The notes under the pieces: model-generated
The model's input: the letters and a program-made list of their open reading frames with translations, nothing else
What the model was told of the DNA's origin: nothing
Databases searched by the model: none
From: Candidatus Nanoarchaeia archaeon
GTDB taxonomy: Archaea > Nanobdellota > Nanobdellia > Woesearchaeales > JANQNE01
Assembly (NCBI GenBank): GCA_028279725.1
Contig: JANQNE010000003.1
Span: forward strand, 1-57,467
Direction: 5' to 3'
DNA: 57,467 bases
Translations under genes and position numbers: made by a program
Part shown: positions 28,552-57,467 of the stretch, one piece after another
How the letters are laid out: each line of letters opens with the position of its first letter
Numbering within the stretch: position 1 is the first letter of the stretch

Positions 28552-28586
28552 AAAAATCACCTCTCTTTAAAATTTTTTAATTTTTA

Positions 28587-33269: not shown

Positions 33270-33294
33270 TTATATACTGAAAATAACCACAAAC

Positions 33295-33302
33295 TTTATA
33301 AA
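33295..33302 (+). promoter_or_regulatory. TATA box at the head of the surface-protein megacluster
   Basis: TTTATAAA, 36 bases before the ATG at 33339. It is the only clear promoter I see for the whole co-directional block to the right edge. Confidence 0.5.
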
Positions 33303-33338
33303 CCCCTAATTGATTTTATTTAAATAGATTTGTAAAAA

Positions 33339-34109
33339 ATGAGGGGTCGGAAGAAAGTTCATCATAGAAGACGCAGTTCTCTCTCTGATGAAGAAAAGAG
33401 GTGGAAAACAACTCCGTTAGGAGTTAGAATTCTATTGATCTATATTAGTGTCCTTGCTCTCTTTTATTTGATATTTGGGCTAACGTTTCCGACTAATCTT
33501 TTCTTTGGATTATTGTTTACTGGAGCAGTTGCAAGAGTTATGAATTTTGTATTTTTAGCTGTGCTGGGGTTTATGATCTATGGTTTTATACTGAAGAAGC
33601 ACTGGGTAGGTAAGTTAGCAATATTTTGGTTTGGTGTTGAAGTTTTGAGTTTATTGACGAGCATTATTATGGGGAAGACAATATTGGAGGATGGAGCTGC
33701 TGTTTATTTCATCACATTGTTTGTTTTTGGAACTAATCTATTTATCCTATGGTATTTGGTTGCGAAGAGAGATTATTTTGTTGATCTGAGGCATCATCAT
33801 ACAAGCTCAGTGGATAAGATTTTTGTGTTGGGCGTATTCATGATGCTGTTTTTGGCAATTGTAGCTACAACAAGCTATGGTTTTAAGGTGTATAAAGATA
33901 CTGTGAAGATAACAAATGAAGTTATTGAAGAGCTTAAAGGATTAGGTTCTGAAGATGCAGAGTTGTTGTGTTCATATAAGAAAGATAAGGAGAAAGACAT
34001 ATGCTATATGGTAGTGGCAACTGCTTATGAAGGCATGCCCCGGAGCATATGCGATAAGGTTGATTATAAATTTTACAAACTTACTTGTGTTCAAGCTGTG
34101 ATACTATGA
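33339..34109 (+). CDS. Multi-pass membrane protein, first gene of the megacluster
   Basis: The 256 residues have a basic cytoplasmic N-terminus (MRGRKKVHHRRRSSLSDEEK) and about five hydrophobic helices (near 30-48, 56-78, 88-108, 118-140, 163-185). The C-terminal outside tail of ~65 residues holds a Cys set (LLCSYKKDKEKDICYMV.., RSICDK.., LTCVQAV), possibly disulfide-bonded. No family was recognised. The 3' end overlaps the next start (ATGA), so it is made together with the giant secreted protein and may anchor or export it. Confidence 0.72.
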   Translation: MRGRKKVHHRRRSSLSDEEKRWKTTPLGVRILLIYISVLALFYLIFGLTFPTNLFFGLLFTGAVARVMNFVFLAVLGFMIYGFILKKHWVGKLAIFWFGVEVLSLLTSIIMGKTILEDGAAVYFITLFVFGTNLFILWYLVAKRDYFVDLRHHHTSSVDKIFVLGVFMMLFLAIVATTSYGFKVYKDTVKITNEVIEELKGLGSEDAELLCSYKKDKEKDICYMVVATAYEGMPRSICDKVDYKFYKLTCVQAVIL

Positions 34110-37100
34110 ATTGGAAGAGAATAATAGCAGTGTTTGTATGTATGCTTGTGGTAAATCTGCCTATAGTTATGGCTGATGCTTACAGCAATGGATCTGTGAA
34201 TCCTGCGCCAGTTGCAGCAGGAGTCTTAATTGTTGGTTTAGCAATTGCAGTTCCTGCTGTGATGAGTTATATTGTTTCTGCTGGATTGGCTAGCGGTGCT
34301 GTTGCAGCTGTATGCAGCGAGACTGATGCAATACAAGGGATCTATACGAAAGGAACATGTACTGATGACGACGACACTGGTGAAGGTTGTATAAATGGAT
34401 GTGATGATGAATGTATTGATTCAACTATGGTAAGGGAAGTTAATTGTGTTAGTGGCCAATGTTCTTATACTCCTCATACATGTCCGGATGGATCTGAGTG
34501 TGTTGATGGGGCTTGTACCGGAGGGAGCGGGTTTGTATCCGGTTCAGCTGATGTTGAAGTTATATCTATAACAGGGATGGATGGAGTTGAAGGTTATAGA
34601 AAAGATATTGATGATTATACTTTGGTTAAGGCACAGGCTACATTCGGTGATGCAACCATAGTTACAGCTGGAAACCTTAAGATAAAGGCAGAAGGATACT
34701 ATGAAGATTTTGACAGCTGTACAAAGATGGATCTGCAGAATATGTATCTTTGTGAATATCAATCTGGGATGAACACAGGTTATTATCTTGAAGGCAGCTT
34801 GTCTTTTGATGTTGAGTTATTTGCTGATCCATCTGATACATCAGCTCTTCCTTATTCTTCTGATTCAGCTGTGATATATATCGATTCAGTAGATCCAGAG
34901 ATAAAGAGTTTTGGAACACCTCAGCAGAACGGAAAGAACATAACATTCTCATATATACTTGATGATGAAGCTGATTATTCATCAAAATCTTCAGGCATTG
35001 TAAAAGCAGAATATCATATAGGATCTTATAAGATCGGTGAGATGGTTTTTGATGAGGATCAAGAATGGCCGCATACTGAATCTTTTGAACTTCAGACTTC
35101 CAGTCCTGATTCAGAAGAAAGTATGGAACTGACAATAACTGCCCATGACGGTGTTGGCAATAAAATTCAAGCTAAAAGCCTGCCTTTTATCATAGATAAT
35201 GAAGCTCCTGAAATAATTGACGGAAGTTTCTTTTTACAGGACAGATTAGGCAATGCTATCTTATCTCTTCCGGAAGACGGATTGAAAGGAGGAGTTATGG
35301 GAATACTGATAAAATCAAATAACGGGATTGAGAACCTTAAAGCTCTGGTATCTCCATTAAGTGATTCTTATGAAGATGATACTTGGATGGATGGAACTTG
35401 CGGAAGTCCGATACAGGACACATATAATTGTGTTTGGAGCGGGCTAGAAGTAGATAAGTCCGGGAATATGAATTCGATAATGATCAATGCCTCTGATGAT
35501 CTAGGCAACAATATAATGGGATCAGTAGGAGATTATCTGATCACTGTTGAGAGAACTGCTCCTGTTGTAAGAGCGGGTTCTTTGAAGGTTGTCTATGCTG
35601 GAACAGATCTGACTCAGATACATGATGAATCAAATGAAGTTAAATATCTTGGAAATTATTCTAAAGATATCAGCAGGGTTAAGGTTGATATATATCTTAA
35701 TCTTACAGATGATTATCCTGGACTGAACACTCAAGGAGTTATCTTAGATCTTAGTGAGTATGGTGGTAATAAGATTACATATGCTTCAAAATGTACACAT
35801 ATGATCTATAAGGTAAATATAACAAATGAGGTAACAGATCAATTCTATAACTGTACTTTCAGAAATGTTGAACTTGAATTAAGTTCTGATCTTACAAAAC
35901 TTGATTTTACTTTTATCGATTTCTTTGGAAATGAAAATGAACATTCAGCAGGACAAAGCATACTATTCGATAATGACGGGCCTGTTGTTGAATATCTTGG
36001 AGCAGGACATACATATGATGGAACTGAATGGGTTGGTCCTAATGATGTTCTTGTTGTAAGGATAAAGGAAGCTGGTTCTGGAATAAATGAGACAAATGTA
36101 AAATTTATCATATCCGGTAAAGAGGTTGATGCAGATAATTGTATAGCTGTTGCAGACCTTTGGACCTGTGAGGCCCCATTGTCTGATGAATTAGATGGAA
36201 AGACTCATCTTTCTGATATTCCTGTCAGTGTTGAAGTTAAAGATAATGTAGGTTATACTGATGATAATGAGACTAGGACTGAAACAACCCTGAAGTTAGA
36301 TAATACTGATCCTGTTGTTAAAGATACTAAGATATTTTCAACTGCTTATATTGCGGATAAACTGACTAGTGGAGAAGGTATGCTTATCAATGTAACAATT
36401 GAAGATGATATATTTGTTACTGGAACAGCAAATATCTCTTCTCTTAATTGTGAAGCTGAAGGAGATGTAAGGTGTCCTGTTGATGAGGAAACTTATGGAG
36501 ACTGTACTTATAATTCTTCTGGAGAAGAATTGTGGACTTGTGAATGGGCAGTTGATGAGATCTACAGGAGAGGGGGAATTGATGCAGCTCCTTCATTAGT
36601 GGATTTCTCTTTTAATATAACAGATATTGTTGGAAACAGCATAAATATAAATCTTACAAAAAGTCGTGAAGTTTATGGGCTTATCGTAGATACAGAACCA
36701 GATAATTTTGAGGCTTTTGTTGATGTTGACAAAGCTTATCCTTATCCTGTGAACAGGTTAACTTTGAGCTTAATGCCACCTGAGATACCAGCCATAGCTA
36801 GTTTTCCTTTTTATATTAAATATCTTACAGGGAAATCCGGAATTACTGTGCTTAAGCAGGAGGTAACTGACTGTGAGATGTTGAACGGAAGTGTTTCAAT
36901 AGGAGATTATTTCTCTTTACCTGATCGTTCTGATGCAGAGTTGATCTTAGCAAGGGATAAACAGAAGCCTTATGAGAGTGATACAATACCTAATTATAAC
37001 AGAGCAGAGCTTCATTTTCAATCTCTTCAAGGAGAGCCTGAAGCTGCAAATGATCTGTTTGATTTTAATGTAACATGTATTCTTAAGATCTATCAGCTGA

Positions 37101-38440
37101 AAGGCGGAAAGATCTATAAAGTTCCTGAAAGGGAAAATATAACTTTCCCTCTGAAATTTATCGATAGTGCTCTTGATGGAACTCCTGATCAGGAGCTTGT
37201 AGATACCCTTCAGGCATATAGGGATGAGAGTTTACTTTTAGATCAGCAATGGATAACAAAAGGAGCTAAGCTGTTTAAGTTGTTGGAAGGAATCTGTACG
37301 ATAGCTTCTACAATATATGGGTTAATGTCAGTTTTTGCGACTGGACAAGTTTTAGGTGCAAGCATGTATGAGACAGGTAAGAATGCTCCAGGGACACCTT
37401 GGGGTGCTGCTCTTAAGGGAGCAGGTTGGGGAGTTTTCAAAGTTAGTTGTTATATCCATGAAGCTATTGGTTTTGTTATAGAGCCTTTATGGCATGGTGC
37501 TGCTGGATTTGGAAAGCATGGACTTGAAAAATGTACAAAGGTTCAGACTCCTGCTGATGTTGCGCGTAAAGCTAAGAACCTAAAAGATGCTTCAAAGGCT
37601 GCTGCAGAAGGGCTTAAAGATGCAACAGAAAAACAGAGGAAGGATGCATGGAACCAACCAACTTTAAGCGGAGAGTACCTCTGTAAATGGATAAGCTGTG
37701 AGTTTGGAAGAGATTTCTGGAATAAATATACTGGAGGAGATCTGTTGAATAGGGCATTAAATGGTACTGCGGCTAGTAAAGTCATGGATAAATGGAATTC
37801 AAGAGCCCAGGCAGCTACTGGTTCACAGGCTTTGTCTTTTGAGAACAGCATAACTCCTCAGAATAGCATCATATTTAGTGTAGGAACTGCATGCCTTCCA
37901 GGTATATTCTATAATCTTGATAAATACAGACAGATACAGTGTACATATGTTAATTGTCTTAAAGAGGCTGCAATATATGGGGGAGATGTTTCGAGCTGTG
38001 ATCAGAAGAAAGGAGAGTCATGGTGTCTTTTGTTATGGGGAGAAGCTGCTGAGGTTATAGGTCCTTTGAGGATTTTGAAAGCTATAGGGGACAGCACTTC
38101 AAATTTCTTTATCAATATATTTCCAGGAGTATTACATGCAGTTGCTGAGAAACTCGTTTGTAAGAAAGAAGCTACTTTTGCGAAATACGAAATATTAAAA
38201 TCAGTTGTATGTGATCTGCCTAGAGCAATATACAGTGGAATTGATGCTTATGAAAATGTAAAGAGTGTATTAAGGTATGGGGATCCTGAGACATGGAAAC
38301 CTGAACATCGTATAGATGATGAATGTGATAGAGCGATGTGTGACGGAACATGGACAGACGGAGCTTGTGTGTGTACAACTAATGAAGAATGTTACAATGG
38401 AGAATGTGTAGATGGAGAATGTGAGTTTGACTGGGCTTAA
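34106..38440 (+). CDS. Giant secreted Ig-repeat and Cys-rich protein (1444 residues)
   Basis: The start at 34106 overlaps the previous stop (ATGA) and gives the signal peptide MNWKRIIAVFVCMLVVNLPI; the earlier TTG at 34085 would put extra residues in front. A second hydrophobic segment at about 36-65 may be a membrane helix. A Cys-rich knot (CINGCDDECIDS.., ECVDGACTGG) lies near 93-145. Residues 150-900 are Ig/cadherin-like repeats with linkers such as DSVDPEIKSF, DNEAPEI, DNTDPVVKDT. Residues 1050-1390 are an unrecognised Cys-rich helical domain (ACLPGIFYNLDKYRQIQCTY.., CLLLWGEAAEVIGPL). The tail has CxxNEECYNGECVDGECE. It is probably displayed on the cell surface. Confidence 0.82.
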   Translation: MNWKRIIAVFVCMLVVNLPIVMADAYSNGSVNPAPVAAGVLIVGLAIAVPAVMSYIVSAGLASGAVAAVCSETDAIQGIYTKGTCTDDDDTGEGCINGCDDECIDSTMVREVNCVSGQCSYTPHTCPDGSECVDGACTGGSGFVSGSADVEVISITGMDGVEGYRKDIDDYTLVKAQATFGDATIVTAGNLKIKAEGYYEDFDSCTKMDLQNMYLCEYQSGMNTGYYLEGSLSFDVELFADPSDTSALPYSSDSAVIYIDSVDPEIKSFGTPQQNGKNITFSYILDDEADYSSKSSGIVKAEYHIGSYKIGEMVFDEDQEWPHTESFELQTSSPDSEESMELTITAHDGVGNKIQAKSLPFIIDNEAPEIIDGSFFLQDRLGNAILSLPEDGLKGGVMGILIKSNNGIENLKALVSPLSDSYEDDTWMDGTCGSPIQDTYNCVWSGLEVDKSGNMNSIMINASDDLGNNIMGSVGDYLITVERTAPVVRAGSLKVVYAGTDLTQIHDESNEVKYLGNYSKDISRVKVDIYLNLTDDYPGLNTQGVILDLSEYGGNKITYASKCTHMIYKVNITNEVTDQFYNCTFRNVELELSSDLTKLDFTFIDFFGNENEHSAGQSILFDNDGPVVEYLGAGHTYDGTEWVGPNDVLVVRIKEAGSGINETNVKFIISGKEVDADNCIAVADLWTCEAPLSDELDGKTHLSDIPVSVEVKDNVGYTDDNETRTETTLKLDNTDPVVKDTKIFSTAYIADKLTSGEGMLINVTIEDDIFVTGTANISSLNCEAEGDVRCPVDEETYGDCTYNSSGEELWTCEWAVDEIYRRGGIDAAPSLVDFSFNITDIVGNSININLTKSREVYGLIVDTEPDNFEAFVDVDKAYPYPVNRLTLSLMPPEIPAIASFPFYIKYLTGKSGITVLKQEVTDCEMLNGSVSIGDYFSLPDRSDAELILARDKQKPYESDTIPNYNRAELHFQSLQGEPEAANDLFDFNVTCILKIYQLKGGKIYKVPERENITFPLKFIDSALDGTPDQELVDTLQAYRDESLLLDQQWITKGAKLFKLLEGICTIASTIYGLMSVFATGQVLGASMYETGKNAPGTPWGAALKGAGWGVFKVSCYIHEAIGFVIEPLWHGAAGFGKHGLEKCTKVQTPADVARKAKNLKDASKAAAEGLKDATEKQRKDAWNQPTLSGEYLCKWISCEFGRDFWNKYTGGDLLNRALNGTAASKVMDKWNSRAQAATGSQALSFENSITPQNSIIFSVGTACLPGIFYNLDKYRQIQCTYVNCLKEAAIYGGDVSSCDQKKGESWCLLLWGEAAEVIGPLRILKAIGDSTSNFFINIFPGVLHAVAEKLVCKKEATFAKYEILKSVVCDLPRAIYSGIDAYENVKSVLRYGDPETWKPEHRIDDECDRAMCDGTWTDGACVCTTNEECYNGECVDGECEFDWA

Positions 38441-38442
38441 AA

Positions 38443-39234
38443 ATGGCAGAGCAAAATCCATATTATCAACAACCGATGCAAGGTCAGAATAGTGGATTAG
38501 CTTTTCATCCTGAACAAGCACAACAGCAGCAAGTTCATCCGCAAGCACAACAGCAGTATCAGCAGATACCTACTACGCAGCCAGCTGCTCAGCCTGCGCC
38601 AGAACAGAAAATGGAGATTCCTGAACAGAAAAAAAGAGGAGTGAATTTAAAAGTATTGTTAGTGTTGGGATTAGCTTTAGTTGTTATTATCGCTTTATTG
38701 TTTGTATTGTTTAAAGGAGAGGGAGATGTTGTCCAGCCTGTTGTTATCGAAGAAGAAGTGATTGAGGAAACTAAAGAGGAAGAAGTTGTTGAAGAGGCAT
38801 TGACAGCTTTGGAAGAGAAATACATTGAAGCACTGGAGAATAAGCAGGCGTTTAAGTTAGTTGATCTTGAGTTTTGTGAAGCGGATGATGAAGGTAACTA
38901 TAATACTAGAAGTGGAAATAAGTTTAAAGGATTGGATGTTATAAGAGTTTGCGGTTATGCTGAGGGATTTACTGATGTGTTTAATGATTTTGGGGATCTT
39001 AGTGTTATTTTGACTGAAAAAGTAAATGTATTGGATGCTAATGGAGTAATCTTGAAAGAAGATGAGATTGAAGTGGAAACTTTTAGTGAAGACCCTAATT
39101 TTAAAGTTCCTATATACTATGCAATACGTGCTGGTGTGAATCAGCAGAAAGGAGAGTACAGTGTTGTTTTTGATATGAGGGATCAGCTGAATGATGAGGA
39201 GGTTTCAGAACAGATCAAGTTCGAGATTGTTTAA
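38443..39234 (+). CDS. Single-pass membrane protein with Gln-rich cytoplasmic head
   Basis: Residues 1-60 of the 263 are Gln/Pro-rich and disordered (MAEQNPYYQQPMQGQNSG.., QAQQQQVHPQAQQQYQQ), prion-like in make-up. One membrane helix follows (about 67-88, VLLVLGLALVVIIALLFVLF), then a Glu/Val-rich stalk (EEEVIEETKEEEVVEEA) and an outside beta domain ending GEYSVVFDMRDQLND...IKFEIV. It shares this order (helix, acidic stalk, beta domain with a G-x-Y/y-x-v...D...F-x-I-V end) with the proteins at 39236 and 41451. Confidence 0.75.
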   Translation: MAEQNPYYQQPMQGQNSGLAFHPEQAQQQQVHPQAQQQYQQIPTTQPAAQPAPEQKMEIPEQKKRGVNLKVLLVLGLALVVIIALLFVLFKGEGDVVQPVVIEEEVIEETKEEEVVEEALTALEEKYIEALENKQAFKLVDLEFCEADDEGNYNTRSGNKFKGLDVIRVCGYAEGFTDVFNDFGDLSVILTEKVNVLDANGVILKEDEIEVETFSEDPNFKVPIYYAIRAGVNQQKGEYSVVFDMRDQLNDEEVSEQIKFEIV

Positions 39235-39235
39235 G

Positions 39236-40207
39236 ATGGAAGAGATGCAGATGCAGGGGATGCAGCCAGTGGCTGGAAGTGAGAAGAAAGGATTGTTGAA
39301 TCTAGTTTTGATTGTTCTTATTCTGATAGTTATTGGAGGGATCATATGGGTTCTTTTGGATCTTTCTGGAGTTGAGGAGAAAGTTGAAGAGCAGATTCCT
39401 GTTGTTGAAGAAGTTGTTGAAGAAGTTAGAAGGACTGAGGATTTGAGTGTTGCTAATGTTCATTTTACTATTATAGATAGATATAATATCTATTCAAAAC
39501 AGGATGAGCCAACTTTTTGTTATACTATAATGGGGTTGATGGATGATGGAGGGATTATGAGTCCCAAGGTAGTTTATGCGGTTGAAGATAGATTAGGAAA
39601 TGAGATATTGAATGAAGTTATAGTAGATAATGATTATAAGTATGATGAAGAATTTATTGGATGTAAAGTTCTTGATATTAGTGATCTTGCAGAAGGAAAT
39701 TATAAGCTGAAAGTTGGAGTACAGGATGATTTTGATCAATCTTATGAAGAGAGAGCAGTTGATTTTAGGATAACACAATATCCAAGAGTTTTGATATATA
39801 ATCAGTTTACTGATCAGATAGGAGATGGACTTTCTGTAGAATATACTGATCTTGTTGATTATATGAAAGCTGGAGAAGATCAAATCAAAAAAGATAATCT
39901 GTTTTTAGCAGGTCAGCCTGTGTTGTTGAGGTCTAAATTTAATGTCTTTTCAAGGATTGAAGTTGATGAACAGTATAAATCCTGGATAATACAGAAGATG
40001 AATGTTTTTGGTCCTGAGGGTATTGTTGTTCATCAGGATGAAAGTCAGGATTTTATTACTAATACTACTTTGAAGGATGATATAATAGTTCCTACATTGA
40101 TCGATACTCATGGATTTGAAGAAGGAAAACATACTGTTAAGATAGAATATACTGATCTTTACAGTTTAGATACAGCTGAAGTTTCAGTTGAGGTAGAAAT
40201 AAGATGA
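39236..40207 (+). CDS. Single-pass membrane protein with outside beta domains, paralogue of its neighbour
   Basis: The ATG at 39236 is one base past the previous stop; an upstream in-frame ATG (39191) would overlap the previous gene. The 323 residues have a short Met/Gln-rich head (MEEMQMQGMQPV), a helix (about 22-42), an acidic stalk (VEEVVEEVRRTED) and two beta domains, the first with a Cys pair (TFCYTI..FIGCKVL) and GNYKLKVGVQDDFDQSYEER, the second ending GKHTVKIEYTDLYSLD..VEVEIR. The 3' end overlaps the next start (ATGA). Confidence 0.75.
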   Translation: MEEMQMQGMQPVAGSEKKGLLNLVLIVLILIVIGGIIWVLLDLSGVEEKVEEQIPVVEEVVEEVRRTEDLSVANVHFTIIDRYNIYSKQDEPTFCYTIMGLMDDGGIMSPKVVYAVEDRLGNEILNEVIVDNDYKYDEEFIGCKVLDISDLAEGNYKLKVGVQDDFDQSYEERAVDFRITQYPRVLIYNQFTDQIGDGLSVEYTDLVDYMKAGEDQIKKDNLFLAGQPVLLRSKFNVFSRIEVDEQYKSWIIQKMNVFGPEGIVVHQDESQDFITNTTLKDDIIVPTLIDTHGFEEGKHTVKIEYTDLYSLDTAEVSVEVEIR

Positions 40208-41454
40208 AGAAGATATTTATTTTTATGCTTGTGATGATTTTAGTAGTTCCTATTGTTTTTGGGTCAATAGTTGATGTCTGCAATAGCCAGAAACCTGCAA
40301 GAAGTTTTACTTATCAGTATTGTTCTGGTCAAAATAGTTTTCCTGATTTTGAGAATGCAGGATGTCAGACTATATTATCTTCCGATGCTATTACTATAAA
40401 TCCAAGTTCTGGTCAGTGTGATTATGTAGTTGGATGTGTTATAGATGAAAGGAAGAAAGAACTAGACAGTGCAACAGGATGTCCGCTTCCTGATGTTTCT
40501 CCTCCAGTAGATTGTACTAGTCTGACGGGTGTTGCTGGATCTGATTGTTCAACTGCAAGAAGTATAGTAAATGGAGAGCTGTATGCTGATCATGAGTGCA
40601 GTTCTGATATGTATGATGAAGCTATTGTGAAGAAAAATCAATGTGATGAGGAAGAATCAAGACAAACTCAGAGTCAACAACCATTGGTTGATTGTGGCGA
40701 CAGTGGAGTTAATTCATTTATTCAGCAACTAAATAGATTTATTGAGGCAACAAAAGGAAAGACATGTTTTACAGAATCTGAGTGGAATTCTGCTAAAGGT
40801 TATGCAAGTGGTTCTGTGTATTGGACCAAGTTCACTAAGCCAACAAGGCATGATGTATGTAGAGAATGTAGAAGTAGTATCACTAATGGTGGTTGTGGCG
40901 GTCCTTGCACTAATTGTTATTCTTCAACTGCTTCTTATAATGATGTTAAGTGTCCTGTTTCAAATTCTGTGGATGTTAGCAGTTCGCAGACAACTCAGAT
41001 CATAAGTTTGTTTGATGGGATACAGTCAGATATAGATAGTTGTTCTTCTCCTCAGAGTTGTGCATCTGCATATCAAAGATATGAAAATAGTAAAAATCAA
41101 TTTTCAGCATGTACAGAACATTGTCAACTAAATATAGATCCTGATAAGATGAAAACTATAAGGTGTTATTTTAATCCTCAAGGAGAAGGTTGTGGCAAGT
41201 GTTATGGAAGCGGTAATTTTGGTTCTCGTGGTTGGTGTATTGTGGGAGGAACATGTAAATATGTTGATTCAGATGCATTTTGGTCTAAGGATCAAGGATG
41301 TCTCTGTTATCCAACTTCATTTCCTAGCCGTGATCAAAGATGGACTGGAAGTAAGTGCGAGCCAAGTGAATCTTTACTTCCAGATATAGATTTAAGTTTA
41401 AATCTTGGGCAAAAAATAAGCCAGAATCTTCAAGGAATATGCAGGAGAAAATGA
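40204..41454 (+). CDS. Secreted Cys-rich protein (416 residues)
   Basis: The start overlaps the previous stop (ATGA). A signal peptide (MKKIFIFMLVMILVVPIVFG) leads to a chain rich in Cys, with spacings such as CRECRSSITNGGCGGPCTNC (about 220-240) and GCGKCYGSGNFGSRGWC (near 330). A helical pair region (CFTESEWNSAKGYAS.., CASAYQRYENSKNQFSACTE) may be repeated. No family was recognised. No C-terminal anchor is visible, so it is exported and either released or held by its membrane partners. The many Cys imply disulfides outside the cell. Confidence 0.72.
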   Translation: MKKIFIFMLVMILVVPIVFGSIVDVCNSQKPARSFTYQYCSGQNSFPDFENAGCQTILSSDAITINPSSGQCDYVVGCVIDERKKELDSATGCPLPDVSPPVDCTSLTGVAGSDCSTARSIVNGELYADHECSSDMYDEAIVKKNQCDEEESRQTQSQQPLVDCGDSGVNSFIQQLNRFIEATKGKTCFTESEWNSAKGYASGSVYWTKFTKPTRHDVCRECRSSITNGGCGGPCTNCYSSTASYNDVKCPVSNSVDVSSSQTTQIISLFDGIQSDIDSCSSPQSCASAYQRYENSKNQFSACTEHCQLNIDPDKMKTIRCYFNPQGEGCGKCYGSGNFGSRGWCIVGGTCKYVDSDAFWSKDQGCLCYPTSFPSRDQRWTGSKCEPSESLLPDIDLSLNLGQKISQNLQGICRRK

Positions 41455-45792: not shown

Positions 45793-45803
45793 AGGTGAAA
45801 TAA

Positions 45804-47255: not shown

Positions 47256-47266
47256 AGAGGTTTAAA

Positions 47267-49642
47267 ATGAAAAAAAGAGGTCAGATAACACTATTCATGG
47301 TCATCGGAATAATATTATTATTTTCAACTTCGTTGATCTTTTATACAAAGGAGAAAGTGCAGGAGGCACAGACAAGTACAGAAAGATTTGCTGCAACAAA
47401 GACTCCGACTGATCTTCTTCCTGTGAAGGTTTATGTTGAGAACTGCTTAACTGAAGTTGGAGAAGATGCAATAAGGCTGATAGGGGCGAATGGAGGATAT
47501 ATTGATATTGATGCGCAAGGATTTACTACTAATCCTTTCTCTCCAGATACCCAGATTATCGAATATGTTCCTGATAAGATACCTTTTTGGTATTATACTG
47601 ATGCTTCAGATAATTTTGCTTCTTTGAAGCCGGAGCTTTATCTAGATACTGATGGGGATAATTCTATAGAGGATCAGATCAACCGTTATGTTGAGGAAGA
47701 ACTTCATATATGCTTTAGAAACTTTACTGCTTTAGAGGATAATTTTAAGATAATACCTGATGGTGTTATTGATGTGATAACAACAGTTTCAGATGAGAAT
47801 GTTCTGCTGAAATTGTTGTATCCTATGGAGGTTGAGAGTAAAGCCACTGGAACAAAGACAAAGATGAAGAGATTCCTTGCGGTTGAAGAGGTTAATCTCA
47901 AGAATATATTTGTTTTCATAAATGAAACCATCAATGCAGAGATAAACAGATCTTTCTTAGAAGACCCTATAAGAAACCTTATAACGATCTATGGTGGAGA
48001 AGATAAAGTGATCCCTCCTTTCAATGAAGTTAAGATGGGTGGCAACACTAATGTGTGGGCGAGATTCAATGTAGAGAAGATAATAAAGAATGATATACTG
48101 CAGTTTATCAGGCTTATGAGGATAGTAAACACCAGAGATTCAAATCCATATCAAGTATATTATACAGATCCAGCAAATCATGATGTGAAACAGGGAGTTT
48201 TTAATTCTCTAAGTTTCCAGTTGGACAATGCATATCCTGATCTTAAGGTTGATTTTTTCTATCCTGGAACACCAATATACTTTGATGTTGGAGGCCAAGA
48301 AGTGATAAAAGCAGAACCTACTGCAGGTTTTGATGTAATACCTTTGAGCTTATTACCGTTTAAGATATATGAATATCCTGAAGGTTATGATCTGTCTTAT
48401 CCTGTTGTTATGAAGATTGAAGATCCTCTGGCTTTTGATGAAGAAGGATACAAGTTCCAGATAGCTCTTGAAGGTAATATAAGAAATGGAAGACCTTATA
48501 CAGGAGGAACATTTAGAACTTCTTTAAAAGTTGGTGTTCCTGTCCTGAGAGTAGGTGATAAAAATCTTTTTGTTGACAAAGAAATTGAGATATTTACAAC
48601 TGATTCTGAAGATGACAGCCCTTTGGATGGTGTTACTGTAACTTATATATGCGGAGAGAGGGTTATCTTAGGGGATACTAAGATGAAAGATGATGAAGCT
48701 GTGTTGAAGACAAAGATGCCTTTTTGCGGATTTGGCGGAAAGATAAAGATTGAGAAAGAAGGTTATCTTGCTGAAGTTATCACATATAATAACAGAAAAA
48801 ATGATGGTATTGTCAAGTTTGATCTTAATCTTTATCCTGTTGTTACAAAAGGAGTGAGGATAATGAAGAGGAATGATACACATGTATTGAACATAAGAGA
48901 CCATATAGCTACAAATCTCGCTGATGCTGTCAGATATGCTGACAGCCAGGCTGATGAGATTACAGATAATGATCTTGTACTATTGCAGATAAAGAGAGTT
49001 AAAGAAAGTTCTCATGATCAGGAATTTCCTCTGCCTAATGTTCTGCAATTTAAGACAGCTAATCATGTTGGAGATTCACAGGGAGCTCCAACTATTGATA
49101 TTGAAGCAGCAAGAGAAGCGATACAGGATTCTGATCTTAGTGATGAAGAAAAGACAGAAGCTTTAGAAGAACTGGATGCCAATGCAGATCTATATTCCAG
49201 TGGAGGAGGAATAAGTGCTTCAGAACCTCCTGAAGAATACTTATTAGATCTTGCTCCTGGTAATTATACTATACAGGCTACTATGATATATTCAGGACCT
49301 ATCGAGATAAAAGAGGATGTGATAGACGGATTATGCGGGGATGAAGAAGAGTGCGAATATCCTTGTGAGAATGAATATGATATTAGTGATTTTGGTGCTG
49401 TAACAACTTCTTGTACTGATGATAATTGGTGCTGTATGGAGCCTATGACACTGGATACATGGCAGAACGGAGGAGCCAGGGCAAATGTTACAATAACAAA
49501 AGATATGGTGTATTCAGATAAGAACCTAACACTGTATGTCTTTGATCTTGGAACTCCATCTACATATGATGAGCTTGATACTCCGAATGTAGATAATTAT
49601 TCCAGAGATAACAAAGATCTCTTGAAACCGAGGTTTATATAA
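47267..49642 (+). CDS. KRGQ-type N-anchored surface protein, paralogue 1 (791 residues)
   Basis: The start at 47267 has AAAGAGG six bases upstream and gives MKKRGQITLFMVIGIILLFS, a basic leader, Gly-Gln and a hydrophobic helix, as in class III (pilin-like) signals. It may thus be cut by a prepilin peptidase, or stay as an N-terminal anchor. The outside part has a VENCL..GGYIDI..NPFSP..IPFWYY block (about 60-115) shared with the protein at 50374. A transthyretin/PEGA-like domain follows near 440-510 (DGVTVTYICGERV, IEKEGYLAEV), then a C-terminal part with CGDEEECEYPCENEYDIS. It is far larger than any normal pilin. Confidence 0.75.
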   Translation: MKKRGQITLFMVIGIILLFSTSLIFYTKEKVQEAQTSTERFAATKTPTDLLPVKVYVENCLTEVGEDAIRLIGANGGYIDIDAQGFTTNPFSPDTQIIEYVPDKIPFWYYTDASDNFASLKPELYLDTDGDNSIEDQINRYVEEELHICFRNFTALEDNFKIIPDGVIDVITTVSDENVLLKLLYPMEVESKATGTKTKMKRFLAVEEVNLKNIFVFINETINAEINRSFLEDPIRNLITIYGGEDKVIPPFNEVKMGGNTNVWARFNVEKIIKNDILQFIRLMRIVNTRDSNPYQVYYTDPANHDVKQGVFNSLSFQLDNAYPDLKVDFFYPGTPIYFDVGGQEVIKAEPTAGFDVIPLSLLPFKIYEYPEGYDLSYPVVMKIEDPLAFDEEGYKFQIALEGNIRNGRPYTGGTFRTSLKVGVPVLRVGDKNLFVDKEIEIFTTDSEDDSPLDGVTVTYICGERVILGDTKMKDDEAVLKTKMPFCGFGGKIKIEKEGYLAEVITYNNRKNDGIVKFDLNLYPVVTKGVRIMKRNDTHVLNIRDHIATNLADAVRYADSQADEITDNDLVLLQIKRVKESSHDQEFPLPNVLQFKTANHVGDSQGAPTIDIEAAREAIQDSDLSDEEKTEALEELDANADLYSSGGGISASEPPEEYLLDLAPGNYTIQATMIYSGPIEIKEDVIDGLCGDEEECEYPCENEYDISDFGAVTTSCTDDNWCCMEPMTLDTWQNGGARANVTITKDMVYSDKNLTLYVFDLGTPSTYDELDTPNVDNYSRDNKDLLKPRFI

Positions 49643-49643
49643 G

Positions 49644-50357
49644 ATGCTGAAATTAAGGAAAGAAGTTGCAATAACATTTTTAGTAGATATGCTTTTCTTC
49701 ATAGTCTTCTTTGTGATTGTAGGTTCTACAGCAACATCTCTCTATAAGCAATATCCTGAGATAAGTGAATTAACAGAGGAGAAGATAAGCAGGTTTTATG
49801 AGACAGATGATATTGCTGGTTTGGAGGTTTCAGTAGAATTGATTCAGGAAGTAAAGAGTGAGGCGATCAGATCCTATAGCTTGGCTGGAATTTTTTTGAT
49901 AATATTGTGGATAATCAGCAGACTGATAGCATATAGGACTTTATCTGGAATAAAGTTTAGTAAGAAGATTATCACTAAGTTTTCTTTGGTAAGTCTTGTA
50001 ACCATAGTAGGGTATGTGTTTTTGATGCTTTTGTCATTCAAGTTTTTGAACTTAAATGTATTTTATTGGGCAATAATATTATTCTCTTTGATCTATATGC
50101 ACTTTAAGTTTATCTTATTAGCAAGACTGTCTTTAGGGAAAGATATCAAATCATCAGAGAAATTATGGTTTAAGAAGGATCTTGTAAAACCTTATCTTGT
50201 ATTTTTGTTGGTTGCTGCAATAACAGTAGCTTTAGTGTTAATTGCTGCGAATCTTCCATATATGTTTGATATGGCAGCAGTTGTGCTTATTTTGTTATTA
50301 TTTGTAAATCTAATGAGGAATTATATCTTTTTGACTATAAAAAATATAAAGGCTTAA
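49644..50357 (+). CDS. Six-helix membrane protein between the KRGQ paralogues
   Basis: The 237 residues have about six hydrophobic helices (near 10-29, 76-95, 110-130, 134-155, 180-200, 205-228) and one outside loop of ~45 charged residues (EISELTEEKISRFYETDDIA) after the first. No family was recognised. Similar small multi-pass proteins serve as export or assembly platforms, but no catalytic motif is seen. Start is one base after the previous stop. Sitting exactly between two pilin-like anchored paralogues suggests a platform for them. Confidence 0.65.
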   Translation: MLKLRKEVAITFLVDMLFFIVFFVIVGSTATSLYKQYPEISELTEEKISRFYETDDIAGLEVSVELIQEVKSEAIRSYSLAGIFLIILWIISRLIAYRTLSGIKFSKKIITKFSLVSLVTIVGYVFLMLLSFKFLNLNVFYWAIILFSLIYMHFKFILLARLSLGKDIKSSEKLWFKKDLVKPYLVFLLVAAITVALVLIAANLPYMFDMAAVVLILLLFVNLMRNYIFLTIKNIKA

Positions 50358-50373
50358 ATAGGATAAAATCAAA

Positions 50374-52329
50374 ATGGAAATGAAGATGTGTAAAAGAGGG
50401 CAGGTAACAGCATTTATCATACTTGGGATAATAATGATATTAGCTGTTATGTTCTTCTTCTATATGAGAGCTGATATAACCAAGATAACCTATGATGAGA
50501 AGGTTCCTGAAGGATTCATACCTCTAAAGAGATTTGTTGAGCAGTGTATGGCTGATGAAACAACTGCATTGGTCCAGACTGCAGGACAGCAAGGAGGTTA
50601 TGTTGATGTTCCTTCTCAGATAAGAATTAATCCATTTTCAAGAGTGATGATATCTCCTCAGCTAGATATGGTCATACCTTACTGGTATTACAGAAGAGGA
50701 GGAAGTATACAGGACGGAGATCTTAGCCCTGAAGAAGATGATATGGTAGCGCAGATAGAGGCGAATGCAGACAGGGAAATAGTCGAATGTGTAGATGCTT
50801 TTAGTTCTTTTGAGAACCTATACAATATATTAGAAGTAGGAGATCTTGAAACAACAATAAAGTTTACTGATAATTCAGTTGTTGTTCTTGTTGATTTTCC
50901 TTTCAAAGTGCAGGATAATACCGGACAGATAGTACCTATGTCTAGATTTAGGACTGAGCTGCCTTTGAGGATAAGAAAAGCTCATGAGCTTGCGAAGGAA
51001 ATATTTGATGCTGAGAACAATCAGATGTTCTTAGAAGGAGTTACTATGGATCTTATGTCTATGGCAAGCAAAGCTACAGACAGTGAAGATTCAATGCCTC
51101 TGGTCCCTATGACAGATATGGTGTTTGGGCAGTGCAAGCCTTTTATGAAGTCAACAGCAAGAGTTAAGAGGAATATACAGGAAATGCTGCCGTTTAATCT
51201 TGATTCTGTGAGGGTAAATGAAACTAATGTTGTTCCATATGAACATCCTGATTATCTTTATGCAAGGAATCATTTTATCTGGAAAACTGGCATGGATAAA
51301 GATGATTATAAGGATTTTAGAGTTGAGTTTGATTATGATCCTGCTTGGGGTATGAAGCTTAGAACCCTTCCTTCTCAAGGAGGGTTCTTAAGGGCAGAAT
51401 CTTCCAAGCTGGTTGATCTTGATCTTGTGATCACTAGATTGACTATTCCTGCTTGTTTTATCAACTATCATTTTGTTTATGATATTGAATATCCTGTTGT
51501 TGTAAGGATATTTGATGAACAAGTAGTAGGTGAGCATGATGCTTATGTCTATCAGTTTGCTATGCCTGTAATAATAAACCATAATGAAGGAGATAAGGTA
51601 AATACTCCAGTGAAATTCTTGCCTGACAGAGTACATGCAGGCGGAGAGTATGAATTCTGTGAAAATAAGGATGACAGAGTTACAGTTTATCCTAGGGATG
51701 AAGTAAGTTATGAGCCTTTGAATAAGGTTAACATAAGATTCTCATGTATTGAGTTTACATGTGATATGGGAAGGACAGTGCCGTTGCTGACAACAGCTGC
51801 TCTTGAAACTGATTTTCCTAGGTGTAATTATGGAACTATAGTAGCTGAGAAAGATGGCTATTTTACAAAACAGATAAGGGGAATCGATACTGAGAACAAT
51901 GATACTATTGAGTTCTTTATGCTTAAGAAGAAAAAACTGAACCTATCAGTTAAGAAGTATCTGGTCGGAGATACTTTCAAAAGGTTCCTTGCTGATGATG
52001 AATCAGTGATTCTTGATATAAAGAATGAAGAATACGGTCATCAGACAAGTGCTTTCTATTCTTCAGAAAGCAGTTTTAGAGAATTTGAGATACCTGTAGG
52101 AGAAGGATTAAGTTATGAGTTAGAAGCTATGGTGTTGAAGAGTGATAATATTGTAGGTGGGACTAAATTATCGTTTAATCCGAGTACTATAGATATCATG
52201 AATGCAAACGAACTTGAGCTATATGTGCTTATCGATGAATCTCTAATTGATGATTATGAAGCTCAGATAAATATGCTTGATAATATGACAGAGTTTTCAA
52301 AAGATGTTGAGGCTCCTGTGTTAAAATGA
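50374..52329 (+). CDS. KRGQ-type N-anchored surface protein, paralogue 2 (651 residues)
   Basis: It starts MEMKMCKRGQVTAFIILGII: basic leader, Gly-Gln and hydrophobic helix, matching paralogue 1. The shared block VEQCM..GGYVDV..NPFSR..IPYWYY is at about 48-110, and a DREIVECVDAFSSFENLYNI segment matches EEELHICFRNFTALEDNFKI of the other. A Cys-containing beta domain near 415-510 (NIRFSCIEFTCDM, VAEKDGYFTKQI) also matches. The two paralogues probably assemble together. Its stop overlaps the next start (ATGA). Confidence 0.75.
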   Translation: MEMKMCKRGQVTAFIILGIIMILAVMFFFYMRADITKITYDEKVPEGFIPLKRFVEQCMADETTALVQTAGQQGGYVDVPSQIRINPFSRVMISPQLDMVIPYWYYRRGGSIQDGDLSPEEDDMVAQIEANADREIVECVDAFSSFENLYNILEVGDLETTIKFTDNSVVVLVDFPFKVQDNTGQIVPMSRFRTELPLRIRKAHELAKEIFDAENNQMFLEGVTMDLMSMASKATDSEDSMPLVPMTDMVFGQCKPFMKSTARVKRNIQEMLPFNLDSVRVNETNVVPYEHPDYLYARNHFIWKTGMDKDDYKDFRVEFDYDPAWGMKLRTLPSQGGFLRAESSKLVDLDLVITRLTIPACFINYHFVYDIEYPVVVRIFDEQVVGEHDAYVYQFAMPVIINHNEGDKVNTPVKFLPDRVHAGGEYEFCENKDDRVTVYPRDEVSYEPLNKVNIRFSCIEFTCDMGRTVPLLTTAALETDFPRCNYGTIVAEKDGYFTKQIRGIDTENNDTIEFFMLKKKKLNLSVKKYLVGDTFKRFLADDESVILDIKNEEYGHQTSAFYSSESSFREFEIPVGEGLSYELEAMVLKSDNIVGGTKLSFNPSTIDIMNANELELYVLIDESLIDDYEAQINMLDNMTEFSKDVEAPVLK

Positions 52330-55300
52330 ACAAGAAAATACAACTGATGGCAGCTTTTGTGATAAGCTTCATCATAGCTATGCCTATATCTTTAGGATTT
52401 AGTATAGGAACACCAACAGCTACAGTCATCGATGACAGAAGCGTGCAGATAGACTGGACAACTACTGAATTGGCGACTTCTAAAGTTAACTATGGGACGA
52501 CTTCAGTTTCTGAGACTAAAACAGAAGACACATTAACTGATAATCACTCAGTTTTGTTGACAGGACTGATTGCGAATCAAGATTATGTATATGATATAGC
52601 TTCAGAGAATGCTTCTGGTCATGAGGAAGTAAATGATAATGGAGGAAATCATTTTAATTTCAAGACTTATGAAACAGTTACTATAAGCGGGCTTAAGATA
52701 GCTGCTGTATCTGAGACTGATGATTATGTTTTTTATGAGGTTAACTGGACGACTAATATAGGGGCTGATGGAAAAGTATTGTTCGGCAATAGCAGTGATA
52801 ATCTGGACGATAGTGTTTCCGGAGCGAGCGGCAGGATCGATCACACAGTTGAGATAAAATTAGAGAAAGCTAAAACATATTATTATCAGGTTCAGTCAAG
52901 CTATAAGAAGAGTGTTGTTAGGTCTTTAGTTGTTCCTGTTGATATAACTCCTCCTGAGATAACTATTGACAGTTTTGATTCAGCGACTCAGGAGATAATC
53001 AATGCCGGAGCTATAAAGAACGATTCTTTTGTGCTTAAAGGTGTAATAGAGCCTAATGTTACTGTAACAATATTCCATAATTTCATAAATGTGGGAAGCT
53101 TTAAAGTAGATGATACTGGTGAGATGGAGAAGACATTGTCTGTAAGCAATGGTATTAACAGATACTTTATGGAGGTTGCTGATGAACATAATAATAAAGC
53201 TAGTTTTGAGTTTAATCTTACTGCAGATGTGCTTGAGCCGATAATAAGGCTTTTGAATTTTGAGGATTCTACAATAAATGAAACTATGCTGCTTAAGGTC
53301 TCTTTTAATGAAGAGGTTATGGCTGAGGTTTATGTAAATACTGTTTCAGTGTTTGAAAGCAGCGATTATTTACTGAATTTTACTAAAGAGATAGATCTTG
53401 CTGAAGAAGAGAATAACATCACCATAATTGCTGTAGACAGGGCTGGAAATGAAGCTGTTTTGACTAAATATGTGGGAAGATTAGGGCCACCAAATGTGAC
53501 TATATCATGGCCTATTCCTGATGAAGTTACAGGTTATGTTGCAACAACACTTAAAGAAGTTATAATAAAAGGGTATACGACTCCTGGTTCAGTTGTTACA
53601 GTATATGAGAGGATTGATGATCCTCAGTTTGAAGAACCTACTGATTTTGTAGCAAATGTTACAGCTGATGAGACTGGAAAGTTTGAAGTTGAACTGGAAT
53701 TAGTAAGTACTGATTTTGATTTCTCAGCTGTTTTCCAGGAAGCTGATTCTTCCAGATATGTTGGAGGAACAAAGGATGAAGTTGTAGCTTATATGAATAC
53801 ACACAATGAGACTAAGATTAAGGTAAGCTTAGAAGCTGAAGATCCATATGGAAGAAAATCTCCTCAAAGGACTGAACTGACTTTCTTTTCAACACCATGT
53901 GATGTTCCTGGTAAGTTTGTTGTAAGTATACTGCCTGATGAACATTACTTTAAACCTTATAGGTTGAGAGATGGAACTGAATTGGTTAATATAGATGTCC
54001 AGTTAACCTGGAGAGGTTTTTCACCAGATTATAGGGTTAGGAGTGTTAGGATAGTTCCTCAGCAAAAGTTCCAGAAATATTATAATGAGACGGATTATGA
54101 ATGTTTTATAGACGGAGAAGTTGCAAAGAACTGGCAACTTGTAAGTTCAGTATCTAATGAAAATCAGACATTCTGGCGTTTTACATATATGCTTAATCCT
54201 TGGAAAGGTATGAATGAGTCTAAAGTAGGAAGTTTGCAGGAAGCGTGGAAGTCTTTGGTTAATAATGACTGTAAGATTCCGATAGAAGTTCATGTTGATT
54301 ACCAGACAACAAGCTTATTGCCTACTGTTGATCCAACAACAGGACAGACAAGTCCTGCTGGAGGATGGCTAGATCCTGAAAAGATGGTGAAGTGCGGTGA
54401 GACTTCTAACCTGATACAGGAAGAGGTTGATCATACTAAAGTACTGCCTCAGGAACTGCTTGATGCTGGGATTGGAATATTGAACCTAACTAACCAATTC
54501 CTGCAGGAAATTGCTCCGTGGGTGAGCGGGTTGCATAAGATCGCTGGAGGAACCTGCTTGCTTTATATCGGAAGGTATTTTACCAAGCATGCGACTACAA
54601 TGGGCACTTGTACAGTTAATATGGGAGAAGCACAATTAAAGAAATCAGAAGGAGCCAGTGATGAAGAGTTGAAGAGTATAGTGGAACCTTGTGCTAATGC
54701 GATACAAGAGGAGAAAGATACATACAACCATTATAGATTAGCTTGTGATAGAGTCTTATGTAAATCAACTCCTGTGAATCCAGAAAGACATCCACAAGCA
54801 ACTAAACCATCAGCAGGTTCTTCTGATCCTGCGAAGCTTCAAAACATAGATACTAAATTGATAGGAGATAAAGGTCAGCCTAACAAGTGTTTGCCAACTA
54901 CAAAATATAGCTGTTATAAAGGGAAGAGAGATAGTGTTGATGACCAATTAGCTGCTGGTTGCATTGAATCAAAACCGATTGGCAGTGGGGGGACAACAGT
55001 TGAAGAATCAAAAAAAGCAGCGACAACAAAAGCTCTATTTTTTACAACAAGTGATTGCAGACCAGAAGATGGAAAGTTCTGCTGTCTGAGGGCTTCTTAT
55101 AATAAGGGAAAAATTACTGAGATTATATATCAGAAAGAAGATGCATGGCCAGTTAAGCCTGACCAGTCAAATAAAGGGGAGTTTTTTGTTAATGAACCAT
55201 GGAATTATGGAACTTTTGCAGGATATAGAGCAGAGACACCAGAGACTTTAGTTGAGAATCTAAATGGTTGGTTTAGTAAAAAAGATAGTGAAGCTAAAGC

Positions 55301-57467
55301 AGTCAGAGATGGGATTAAAGGAAATAATGTTAATGCTCCTGGAAAAGTAGCTTATGTAGAAGGATTACACGGACCATCTTGTTTTAACAGTGGAAGTGTT
55401 TTCTTAGGATCTAAGAGAGCTTTCTTAGAGCCTACACAGAATTTTAGATCAGCTATACAATGCGGATGCTTGTCTCAGATAAATGGTTATGTGAGGCAGT
55501 GGGAAAGGCTGACTGGAGAGATGCTGAGGTGTTTGCAGGAAGCTAAGGCAGGAGATACATTTACTGCTGCAGCTTGTGAAGAGTTGTTTACCCAGTTTGT
55601 ATGTGATCTTTTCACTTACGTCATGGTTGAGTTTGTGATGGGTAAGATAGATGAATCTTTCAACAAAAATAGTGTGGATGAAGGAGAGCACGGTTTTGGG
55701 GAAGGATTTGCTTCTGGATTAAAAGGAGCTGGAACAATATTTACAGAAGATTATAAAGAATCGTTCCATGGGCAATTTGACCTTGGTGTTAGCTCTTTAT
55801 CGCATGCAGTGTGTATGGGTGCTTTGACTGGAGAATGGGATCCTAATCTGCAATCAGCATTAGGGTTTGGTGATCAAACACCTCCAAGACAGAGTACTGC
55901 GTTTATTTCAACTGCAAGAGCAGAGTTATTAAGTGCAAACCCAATTACTGGAGCTGCAACTTATGAATATACTATGGGTCTTTGGCTGCAGCCAGGATCA
56001 AATCTTCTGAATTATAGAGTTGAACTAGTGTGTGATTATGAAGGTGATTGCCCTGCTGTTACAGAAACTTTGCCTTTTGTGACAACTGATGGATCTTTCC
56101 CAGGGGTTAAGACTGATATAAAGCAGACAGATCCAACTGAAACTCCTGCAGGACATATGAGAGTTTCTGAGAAATTTATCAGATATAACAAGATGAGAGT
56201 TTGCTGGACATCAGCAGCTGGAGCTGAGTTTAGTGCAGAACCTCCACATTGTGAGGAGAAAGAGATCACTGGATGGACTACAGCGTTGTTTGGCTGTGCT
56301 TTAGAGCCATCTAAAGCTGTTAGTGGAAATAAGATATGGTCATGTCCTAAATATATTTCAGATCAGTATGCGGAGTTTGCGCAAGAACCACCTGCAGAGA
56401 TGTCATTTAGTTTTACTGATCAAGATAGTACAGGAATACAGAGATTTAAGATTCCTTTCAAGATAAGAGCAGAATATGGGCAGACGACGATGCAGGAAAG
56501 ACCTTTCCTGATACAATACAAACAGATAGAAGGAGAAGGAGTAGGGACAATCGAAGGTGTTGAAGTCATAAGAGAGGGATACACAGAAGAGCATGATTAT
56601 GGATTTGACTTTACTGTTAAGGAAGGAGATTTTACAGGACAAGGTTTGCAGAAAGTTACTGCGGAGATGACTATTGGAGATACAAATGACGTTTGTAGAA
56701 TTAGTTCTGAGTCTGGCGTTGTAGCTAAGCAAGGGGCAATAATAATAGATTGGACACAAGGTGGTAATCTGATAGATAAGATGTTTTATCACACAGGTAC
56801 TGATTTTGAATTTAAGGATCCTGGCGCCATGGATGAGAGTATAGGTGGAGGAATTCCTGCTGGTACTAATACTATTTCAGTCTCTTTTAAGCTTAATGGA
56901 GTTGATATTGTCCTATCACTAACCAAAGGAGTTAAATGTGAAGTGGAAGTAATACCTCCTAGAGTATCAGGAGATACTGCTAAGATAACTAAGAAATTCT
57001 CTATTGGTCTTCATAAGTCAAGACAAGGAGATCCTTTAACTCCAGATGCTCTTATAGTCAGGCAAGGAAACAAGCAACAATACAAGGAAATAAGTGTTAC
57101 TTTAACTAATAATAAAGGAAGTGCAAGTTCATCAAGTGCAGATTCATCTACAGATTTAAAGGGAAGTGATAAAGGTATCAGTTTTACTATTAATAAGGTA
57201 TCTAACGAAGGAGCATACACTACTGTGACTCCAAGTACTGTGATAAATCCGGGAGATAAATTAGAGATTGAAGTTAACTTAGATCCTATAAAAAATTATA
57301 AAATTCAATCAGTTGAAGCTAGGATTGAAGAACCTCCAGTAACCGGTTCTGATAGACCTTTTGTTAGACATTTCTTAGCAAAGCAAGAAGTGGGAACTAG
57401 TTTGACTATGACTTATATTCTTCCTAATGATATCAGAGAGAATGATCAACTTGCTATCCAGGTGACT
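52326..57467 (+). CDS. Giant secreted FnIII/Ig and Cys-rich protein (3' end outside window)
   Basis: The ATG overlaps the previous stop (ATGA); the frame then stays open for 1714 codons to the right edge. A signal peptide (NKKIQLMAAFVISFIIAMPI) is followed by two FnIII-like domains (about 28-110 and 115-195, with VQIDWTTTELATSKVNYGTT and FYEVNWTTNIGADGKVLFGN), as in purple-acid-phosphatase N-termini. Several Ig-like domains follow (195-560; linkers DITPPEITIDSFDS, PPNVTISWPIPDE). An unrecognised Cys-rich helical domain covers about 690-1180 (GGTCLLYIGRYFTKH, CLSQINGYVRQW.., CEELFTQFVCDLF), similar in style to the 1444-residue protein. Beta-rich repeats continue to the edge. Confidence 0.85.
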   Translation, partial: MNKKIQLMAAFVISFIIAMPISLGFSIGTPTATVIDDRSVQIDWTTTELATSKVNYGTTSVSETKTEDTLTDNHSVLLTGLIANQDYVYDIASENASGHEEVNDNGGNHFNFKTYETVTISGLKIAAVSETDDYVFYEVNWTTNIGADGKVLFGNSSDNLDDSVSGASGRIDHTVEIKLEKAKTYYYQVQSSYKKSVVRSLVVPVDITPPEITIDSFDSATQEIINAGAIKNDSFVLKGVIEPNVTVTIFHNFINVGSFKVDDTGEMEKTLSVSNGINRYFMEVADEHNNKASFEFNLTADVLEPIIRLLNFEDSTINETMLLKVSFNEEVMAEVYVNTVSVFESSDYLLNFTKEIDLAEEENNITIIAVDRAGNEAVLTKYVGRLGPPNVTISWPIPDEVTGYVATTLKEVIIKGYTTPGSVVTVYERIDDPQFEEPTDFVANVTADETGKFEVELELVSTDFDFSAVFQEADSSRYVGGTKDEVVAYMNTHNETKIKVSLEAEDPYGRKSPQRTELTFFSTPCDVPGKFVVSILPDEHYFKPYRLRDGTELVNIDVQLTWRGFSPDYRVRSVRIVPQQKFQKYYNETDYECFIDGEVAKNWQLVSSVSNENQTFWRFTYMLNPWKGMNESKVGSLQEAWKSLVNNDCKIPIEVHVDYQTTSLLPTVDPTTGQTSPAGGWLDPEKMVKCGETSNLIQEEVDHTKVLPQELLDAGIGILNLTNQFLQEIAPWVSGLHKIAGGTCLLYIGRYFTKHATTMGTCTVNMGEAQLKKSEGASDEELKSIVEPCANAIQEEKDTYNHYRLACDRVLCKSTPVNPERHPQATKPSAGSSDPAKLQNIDTKLIGDKGQPNKCLPTTKYSCYKGKRDSVDDQLAAGCIESKPIGSGGTTVEESKKAATTKALFFTTSDCRPEDGKFCCLRASYNKGKITEIIYQKEDAWPVKPDQSNKGEFFVNEPWNYGTFAGYRAETPETLVENLNGWFSKKDSEAKAVRDGIKGNNVNAPGKVAYVEGLHGPSCFNSGSVFLGSKRAFLEPTQNFRSAIQCGCLSQINGYVRQWERLTGEMLRCLQEAKAGDTFTAAACEELFTQFVCDLFTYVMVEFVMGKIDESFNKNSVDEGEHGFGEGFASGLKGAGTIFTEDYKESFHGQFDLGVSSLSHAVCMGALTGEWDPNLQSALGFGDQTPPRQSTAFISTARAELLSANPITGAATYEYTMGLWLQPGSNLLNYRVELVCDYEGDCPAVTETLPFVTTDGSFPGVKTDIKQTDPTETPAGHMRVSEKFIRYNKMRVCWTSAAGAEFSAEPPHCEEKEITGWTTALFGCALEPSKAVSGNKIWSCPKYISDQYAEFAQEPPAEMSFSFTDQDSTGIQRFKIPFKIRAEYGQTTMQERPFLIQYKQIEGEGVGTIEGVEVIREGYTEEHDYGFDFTVKEGDFTGQGLQKVTAEMTIGDTNDVCRISSESGVVAKQGAIIIDWTQGGNLIDKMFYHTGTDFEFKDPGAMDESIGGGIPAGTNTISVSFKLNGVDIVLSLTKGVKCEVEVIPPRVSGDTAKITKKFSIGLHKSRQGDPLTPDALIVRQGNKQQYKEISVTLTNNKGSASSSSADSSTDLKGSDKGISFTINKVSNEGAYTTVTPSTVINPGDKLEIEVNLDPIKNYKIQSVEARIEEPPVTGSDRPFVRHFLAKQEVGTSLTMTYILPNDIRENDQLAIQVT

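Follow-up and report, generated by a model that had tools for sequence, protein, structure and literature searches.

A gene cluster for anchored and secreted proteins

The DNA analysed here, which we call the window, is one whole contig of 57,467 bp (C11) from a 1.42 Mb genome in 12 contigs that is 96% complete. ORF calling placed 13 co-directional genes, A to M, between position 33339 and the right edge of the window (Table 1). With the longest ORFs, successive spacings are -25, 2, -44, -4, -16, -4, -22, 11, -7, 1, 16, and -4 bp, and using internal ATGs instead gives an ATGA overlap at 34106, the likely true start of B, and a spacing of about 1 bp ahead of gene D; the genes overlap as if translationally coupled. 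An earlier note on this sequence had described 13 genes in one direction, never more than 16 bp apart, behind a TATA box, and both the ORF list and the TATA-like element found ahead of the first ATG agree with it. The cluster also reaches the window edge as claimed, but this edge is an assembly break: the final 99 bp exactly match the start of another contig of this genome, C4, on which M reaches its stop 87 bp further on and gains 28 residues. Since this overlap completes the last gene, and the next gene on C4 lies on the opposite strand and is convergent, the cluster is complete at 13 genes. Giant proteins had been placed at both of its ends; giant B is in fact encoded by the second gene, not the first.

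Hydropathy assigns five membrane helices to A, six to K, and a single N-terminal hydrophobic segment to each remaining product, as expected from the claim that all but A and K are N-anchored or secreted. A Pfam and NCBIfam scan of the cluster proteins gave only Pur_ac_phosph_N (FnIII-like), in M, above cut-off.

Elsewhere in the window, 9 kb from the cluster, lies a gene for a lipoprotein-like N-acetylmuramoyl-L-alanine amidase, a murein enzyme, yet in an archaeon; a RuBisCO large chain and a very large truncated ORF are also encoded. In the source genome several contig breaks (L159, L162, L163, L168, and L174) interrupt long ORFs that resemble surface-protein genes, and N stands at several contig ends.

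Table 1 Genes of the cluster and other features of the window
Feature	Position	Strand	Description	Relatives or context
ORF	2-5548	+	Very large ORF, weak serine-esterase (DUF676) match	Truncated by left edge
Amidase	22183-23898	-	N-acetylmuramoyl-L-alanine amidase (Amidase_3, E 1.4e-16)	
RuBisCO	27286-28560	-	RuBisCO large chain	
TATA-like element	33291-33303	+	Archaeal, AAACTTTATAAAC	About 40 bp upstream of first ATG
A	33339-34109	+	Five-helix membrane protein, 256 aa	11/60 same-order genomes
B	34085-38440	+	Giant 1, about 1450 aa, 46 Cys, Ig-like stretches	KRGQ1-adjacent profile family in most loci
C	38443-39234	+	Small N-anchored ectodomain protein, copy 1	22-member family with D, F
D	39191-40207	+	Small N-anchored ectodomain protein, copy 2	Same family as C, F
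E	40204-41454	+	Secreted Cys-rich protein, 416 aa, 31 Cys	Homologue in 0/21 neighbourhoods
F	41439-41984	+	Small N-anchored ectodomain protein, copy 3	Same family as C, D
G	41981-43144	+	Secreted Cys-rich protein, 387 aa, 33 Cys	Homologue in 0/21 neighbourhoods
H	43123-45792	+	Secreted Cys-rich protein, 889 aa, 89 Cys	Homologue in 0/21 neighbourhoods
I	45804-47255	+	Secreted Cys-rich protein, 483 aa, 31 Cys	Relatives in G043, weakly G041
J	47249-49642	+	KRGQ1, pilin-signal protein with large ectodomain, 797 aa	Giant-B-linked clade of KRGQ tree
K	49644-50357	+	Six-helix membrane protein, 237 aa	Same slot in most loci
L	50374-52329	+	KRGQ2, pilin-signal protein, 651 aa, 8 conserved Cys	Family in 239/279 phylum genomes
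M	52326-57467	+	Giant 2, 1742 aa in full (last 28 aa on contig C4)	M-type giants directly 3' of KRGQ, 60 loci

Two paralogous modules of a KRGQ protein and a giant

The core of the locus consists of two paralogous modules, each a KRGQ protein with a giant Cys-rich Ig-type protein, usually with the six-helix protein between them. J and L align as paralogues over 544 aa (E 2.6e-32), and KRGQ proteins carry the N-terminal motif [KR]GQ[IV]T.F ahead of a hydrophobic helix. In an alignment of 56 sequences Q10, T12, and F14 are invariant and K7 and G9 exceed 90%; 13 columns are invariant over these sequences, including Cys58, 139, 429, and 463, and a 13-sequence KRGQ2 set has eight invariant Cys. A phylogeny of 116 KRGQ proteins recovered an M-linked clade (support 97), in which 55 of 56 rows have M and one lacks an adjoining giant, a B-linked clade (support 99), and a third clade that is largely from Pacearchaeota. 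The J protein of the window falls inside the B-linked clade, although B sits at the front of the cluster here. As the tree parts KRGQ1, whose partner is giant B, from KRGQ2, whose partner is giant M, the pairings are ancient.

The giants are themselves related through a Cys-rich helical block common to B and M (hhalign probability 94, E 9e-8). A profile of the M block matches 48 of the 51 giants longer than 1500 aa and recovers most of the sister-clade giants that the full-length model missed. The AF2 model of KRGQ2 (pLDDT 89) has an N-terminal helix at residues 8-36, an alpha/beta head, and C-terminal beta domains; its closest fold matches, the Ig/CnaB-type domains of SdrD and SpaA, are a generic, low-TM resemblance, and a weak match to the Sulfolobus SlaA/SlaB S-layer was also found. 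The M core was modelled at low confidence (pLDDT 59) as Ig-like strands and long helices, and its fold search returned nothing below E 0.04. Searches of PDB sequences with the KRGQ2 and M-core profiles gave no significant match; the KRGQ head and the core of the giants are explained by no Pfam, PDB-sequence, or fold match.

Distribution and gene order across Nanobdellota

KRGQ2 relatives occur in 54 of 60 genomes of the same order, and a profile search found the KRGQ family in 239 of 279 genomes sampled across the phylum, leaving about 14% with no detectable match. The named relatives are Woesearchaeota, Pacearchaeota, and Nanoarchaeota assemblies, which belong to the phylum Nanobdellota. Many sampled genomes of one family of the same order (f38) lack the KRGQ locus despite good assembly, and the lifestyle of this family may differ.

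We compiled gene orders from the 20-kb flanks of about 20 genomes together with 79 named loci. The commonest core order is KRGQ1, giant B, an anchored spacer protein, the six-helix protein, KRGQ2, and giant M, and the locus spans 14-24 kb in genomes of roughly 1 Mb. Of 117 distinct full-length KRGQ genes, 97 have a giant directly 3': the same-strand neighbour encodes giant M in 60 cases, giant B in 24, and another protein longer than 900 aa in 13, and the modal spacing is -4, an ATGA-type overlap. Because the loci were gathered through KRGQ matches and are mutually related, these figures are to be read as counts rather than as independent events. The two modules occur together in 20 loci, of which five are interrupted by one or two ORFs called on the opposite strand, and they lie far apart in some genomes (G013, G042, and G059). 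The KRGQ-giant pairs are stable, and the joining of the two pairs is less so.

The window locus contains KRGQ1 with B and KRGQ2 with M, the six-helix protein lying between. The combination of both KRGQ proteins, the two giants, the membrane proteins with five and six helices, and the small anchored family is met again in other genomes. Since the set recurs in this way, the cluster is more than a chance assembly, as had been proposed; the core is what relatives share, and the exact 13-gene design does not recur.

Accessory proteins

The genes around the core are more variable. In most of its genomes A lies next to a KRGQ gene, usually KRGQ1, by coordinates, and the K family, weakly alignable, occupies the slot between the modules in most loci. 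A single-sequence search of relatives with D gave no match, and the idea that C, D, and F are lineage-specific was rejected when an iterated search with membrane segments removed united them in one family of 22 proteins. All members checked in gene maps lie within or beside KRGQ-giant loci, so the three small anchored proteins of the earlier note are one triplicated, cluster-bound family. Of the four Cys-rich proteins, three (E, G, and H) gave no match in the 21 neighbourhoods fetched first. G and H are weakly similar to each other (E 0.02), H has a weak PEGA-like stretch, and relatives of I were found only in G043 (3.5e-19) and, weakly, in G041, beside KRGQ1 in both. The anchored spacer family, present in about 30 other loci, was looked for in the window and not found; accessory genes may replace it here.

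A chance or loose grouping of secreted-protein genes could be argued from modules that can stand apart and from E, G, and H, which look lineage-specific. Set against this are the direct adjacency of KRGQ and giant with partner fidelity across many families and the binding of the C/D/F family to the cluster; for the core genes such a grouping is already contradicted, and overall we regard it as highly improbable. This is a real and conserved surface locus, built from an ancient pair of KRGQ-giant modules and from accessories that vary, and the window holds a large version of it. It is apparently undescribed: no account of it was found in the literature searched, largely open-access papers.

Relation to pilus machinery

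At the level of the motif, KRGQ proteins carry the archaeal pilin signal, [KR]G/Q before a hydrophobic helix. One explanation of the locus is a type-IV-pilus-like filament, tipped with KRGQ proteins as minor pilins and with the giants as PilY1-like adhesins, and built by a divergent ATPase and a tandem platform encoded elsewhere. Besides the pilin-like N-terminus, the distribution of candidate machinery is consistent with this. Prepilin peptidase (PF01478) was found in 57 of 60 same-order genomes, and a secretion ATPase of 766 aa in all 60, at 53-65% identity in most of them. In the source genome this ATPase (G000:C3:10143-14625, L149) adjoins a 729-aa multi-helix platform-like protein, and such a gene adjoins it in the regions read.

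Other observations weigh against a filament. The ATPase also occurs in genomes where KRGQ is absent and is therefore not tied to the KRGQ locus; it is unlinked to the cluster as well, and although it may serve the KRGQ proteins it cannot be assigned to them. None of the 13 products matched PF00437 or PF00482, the corresponding genes of the source genome being on other contigs. Position +5 from the predicted cleavage site is an invariant Phe across the 56 sequences, not the Glu that is typical of assembling pilins. The class III signal model PF04021 matched neither J, L, nor any of 13 KRGQ2 members, and the cluster encodes no small major pilin. Taken with the evidence on its side, we consider a filament of this kind unlikely, though worth keeping in view. 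The distribution of PF00482 (TadC platform) speaks neither for nor against a dependence on such a platform: it was unmatched in 9 of 60 genomes, eight of them with strong KRGQ matches, but several of these PF00482-negative genomes have a platform-like multi-helix gene beside the universal ATPase.

Murein-enzyme domains in sister-clade giants

We scanned the C-terminal tails of 47 giants and detected six SLT (lytic transglycosylase) domains, one DUF2272, and one SH3_3. The giants with murein-enzyme ends (six SLT and one DUF2272) belong to loci L093, L101, L110, L131, L133, L139, and L095. The catalytic Glu and the GLMQ motif are kept in 6/6 SLT domains, and all six SLT loci fall in the third KRGQ clade; the enzymatic tails are confined to the sister clade, with no SLT domain in B, in the window part of M, or visible in its 28-aa end. 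SLT domains with a catalytic Glu at the ends of giants point to bacterial cell walls, and judging from these domains the sister-clade giants probably bind or open them.

These tails also bear on whether the locus builds a static scaffold, associated with the envelope or S-layer, that braces the cell surface and has no contact role. Anchored Ig-rich and Cys-rich proteins kept across most of the phylum would suit such a structure, as would the weak S-layer fold match, whereas accessories that differ by lineage and tails with enzyme domains suggest a target that lies outside the cell and changes, and the lack of a detectable match in some 14% of sampled genomes is odd for a basic wall part. A purely structural role seems to us quite unlikely.

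A proposed cell-surface contact apparatus

The reading that we favour, with a probability of about 0.5, takes the locus as coding for a single apparatus for contact at the cell surface of Nanobdellota. Of the multi-part surface machine of the earlier note, what is supported is one co-inherited surface-protein locus; its filament, adhesion, and host-contact roles are putative. Under our proposal KRGQ would be cleaved before Gln by the genome-encoded prepilin peptidase, and its N-terminal helix would keep it in the membrane with the disulfide-braced head displayed. The co-translated giant would bind this head, a contact suggested by gene linkage only, and extend outward through its Ig/FnIII domains, so that its far end could touch other cells. 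Assembly may be the task of the five- and six-helix proteins; decorating the structure, or adapting it lineage by lineage, may fall to the small anchored proteins and the Cys-rich ones. We counted against this apparatus the lack of a pilus ATPase or platform in the cluster, the Phe at +5, the low-TM folds, the poor model of M, and the confinement of enzymatic tails to the sister clade, with none in the M of the window.

A more specific version, which we put forward tentatively, is a contact machine of a kind new among prokaryotes and found Nanobdellota-wide. Its giants, held in pairs by the pilin-signal proteins, would use their Cys-locked helical block and outer domains to dock to the envelope of a host or prey cell and, in some lineages, to cut into it. 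If this is true, episymbiosis in the phylum could have its molecular basis in this machine, with bacteria included among the partners; the sister-clade tails suggest bacteria as a target of some of these archaea. Little is known of how DPANN archaea with small genomes recognise other cells and keep hold of them, and the locus offers a short list of proteins for tests of host contact. Most of the genomes sampled across the phylum carry it, and the tested families have no curated match or solved-structure explanation.

Comparison with known systems

The Gram-positive adhesins and pilins SdrD, SpaA, and SpaC have Ig/CnaB-like beta domains that Foldseek matched to regions within the KRGQ2 ectodomain (E 1e-8 to 1e-4), but TM-scores are about 0.25 or lower, the likeness is that of a generic beta-sandwich, and KRGQ2 has an archaeal N-terminal anchor. 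In bacteria, minor pilins pair with PilY1-type tip adhesins. The KRGQ-giant modules resemble these pairs in layout, the gene for a giant surface protein lying next to that for a pilin-signal protein whose ectodomain is large; neither sequence nor fold comparison showed homology between the two.

Two type IV pilus loci with coiled-coil proteins have been described in cluster-2 DPANN (PMC11291902). They share with the window cluster the same lineages, pilin-like signals, and a proposed role in cell interaction, but encode an ATPase (CpaF) and a platform (TadC), both absent from the cluster. The 766-aa ATPase locus is a candidate match and is probably one of these pilus loci.

The portion of PMC8204110 drawn on here describes giant extracellular "murein-like lytic transglycosylase" proteins in Woesearchaeota and Pacearchaeota (fam00969, module 98) and suggests that they attach to bacterial walls. 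On lineage, size (up to 3000 aa), and the SLT domain, the SLT giants of the KRGQ locus are very likely fam00969, whereas the giants of the window lack SLT. That portion makes no mention of a KRGQ partner, a second module, the shared Cys-rich block, or an operon; relative to it, our analysis ties the giant transglycosylases to a KRGQ partner and to a duplicated module found phylum-wide.
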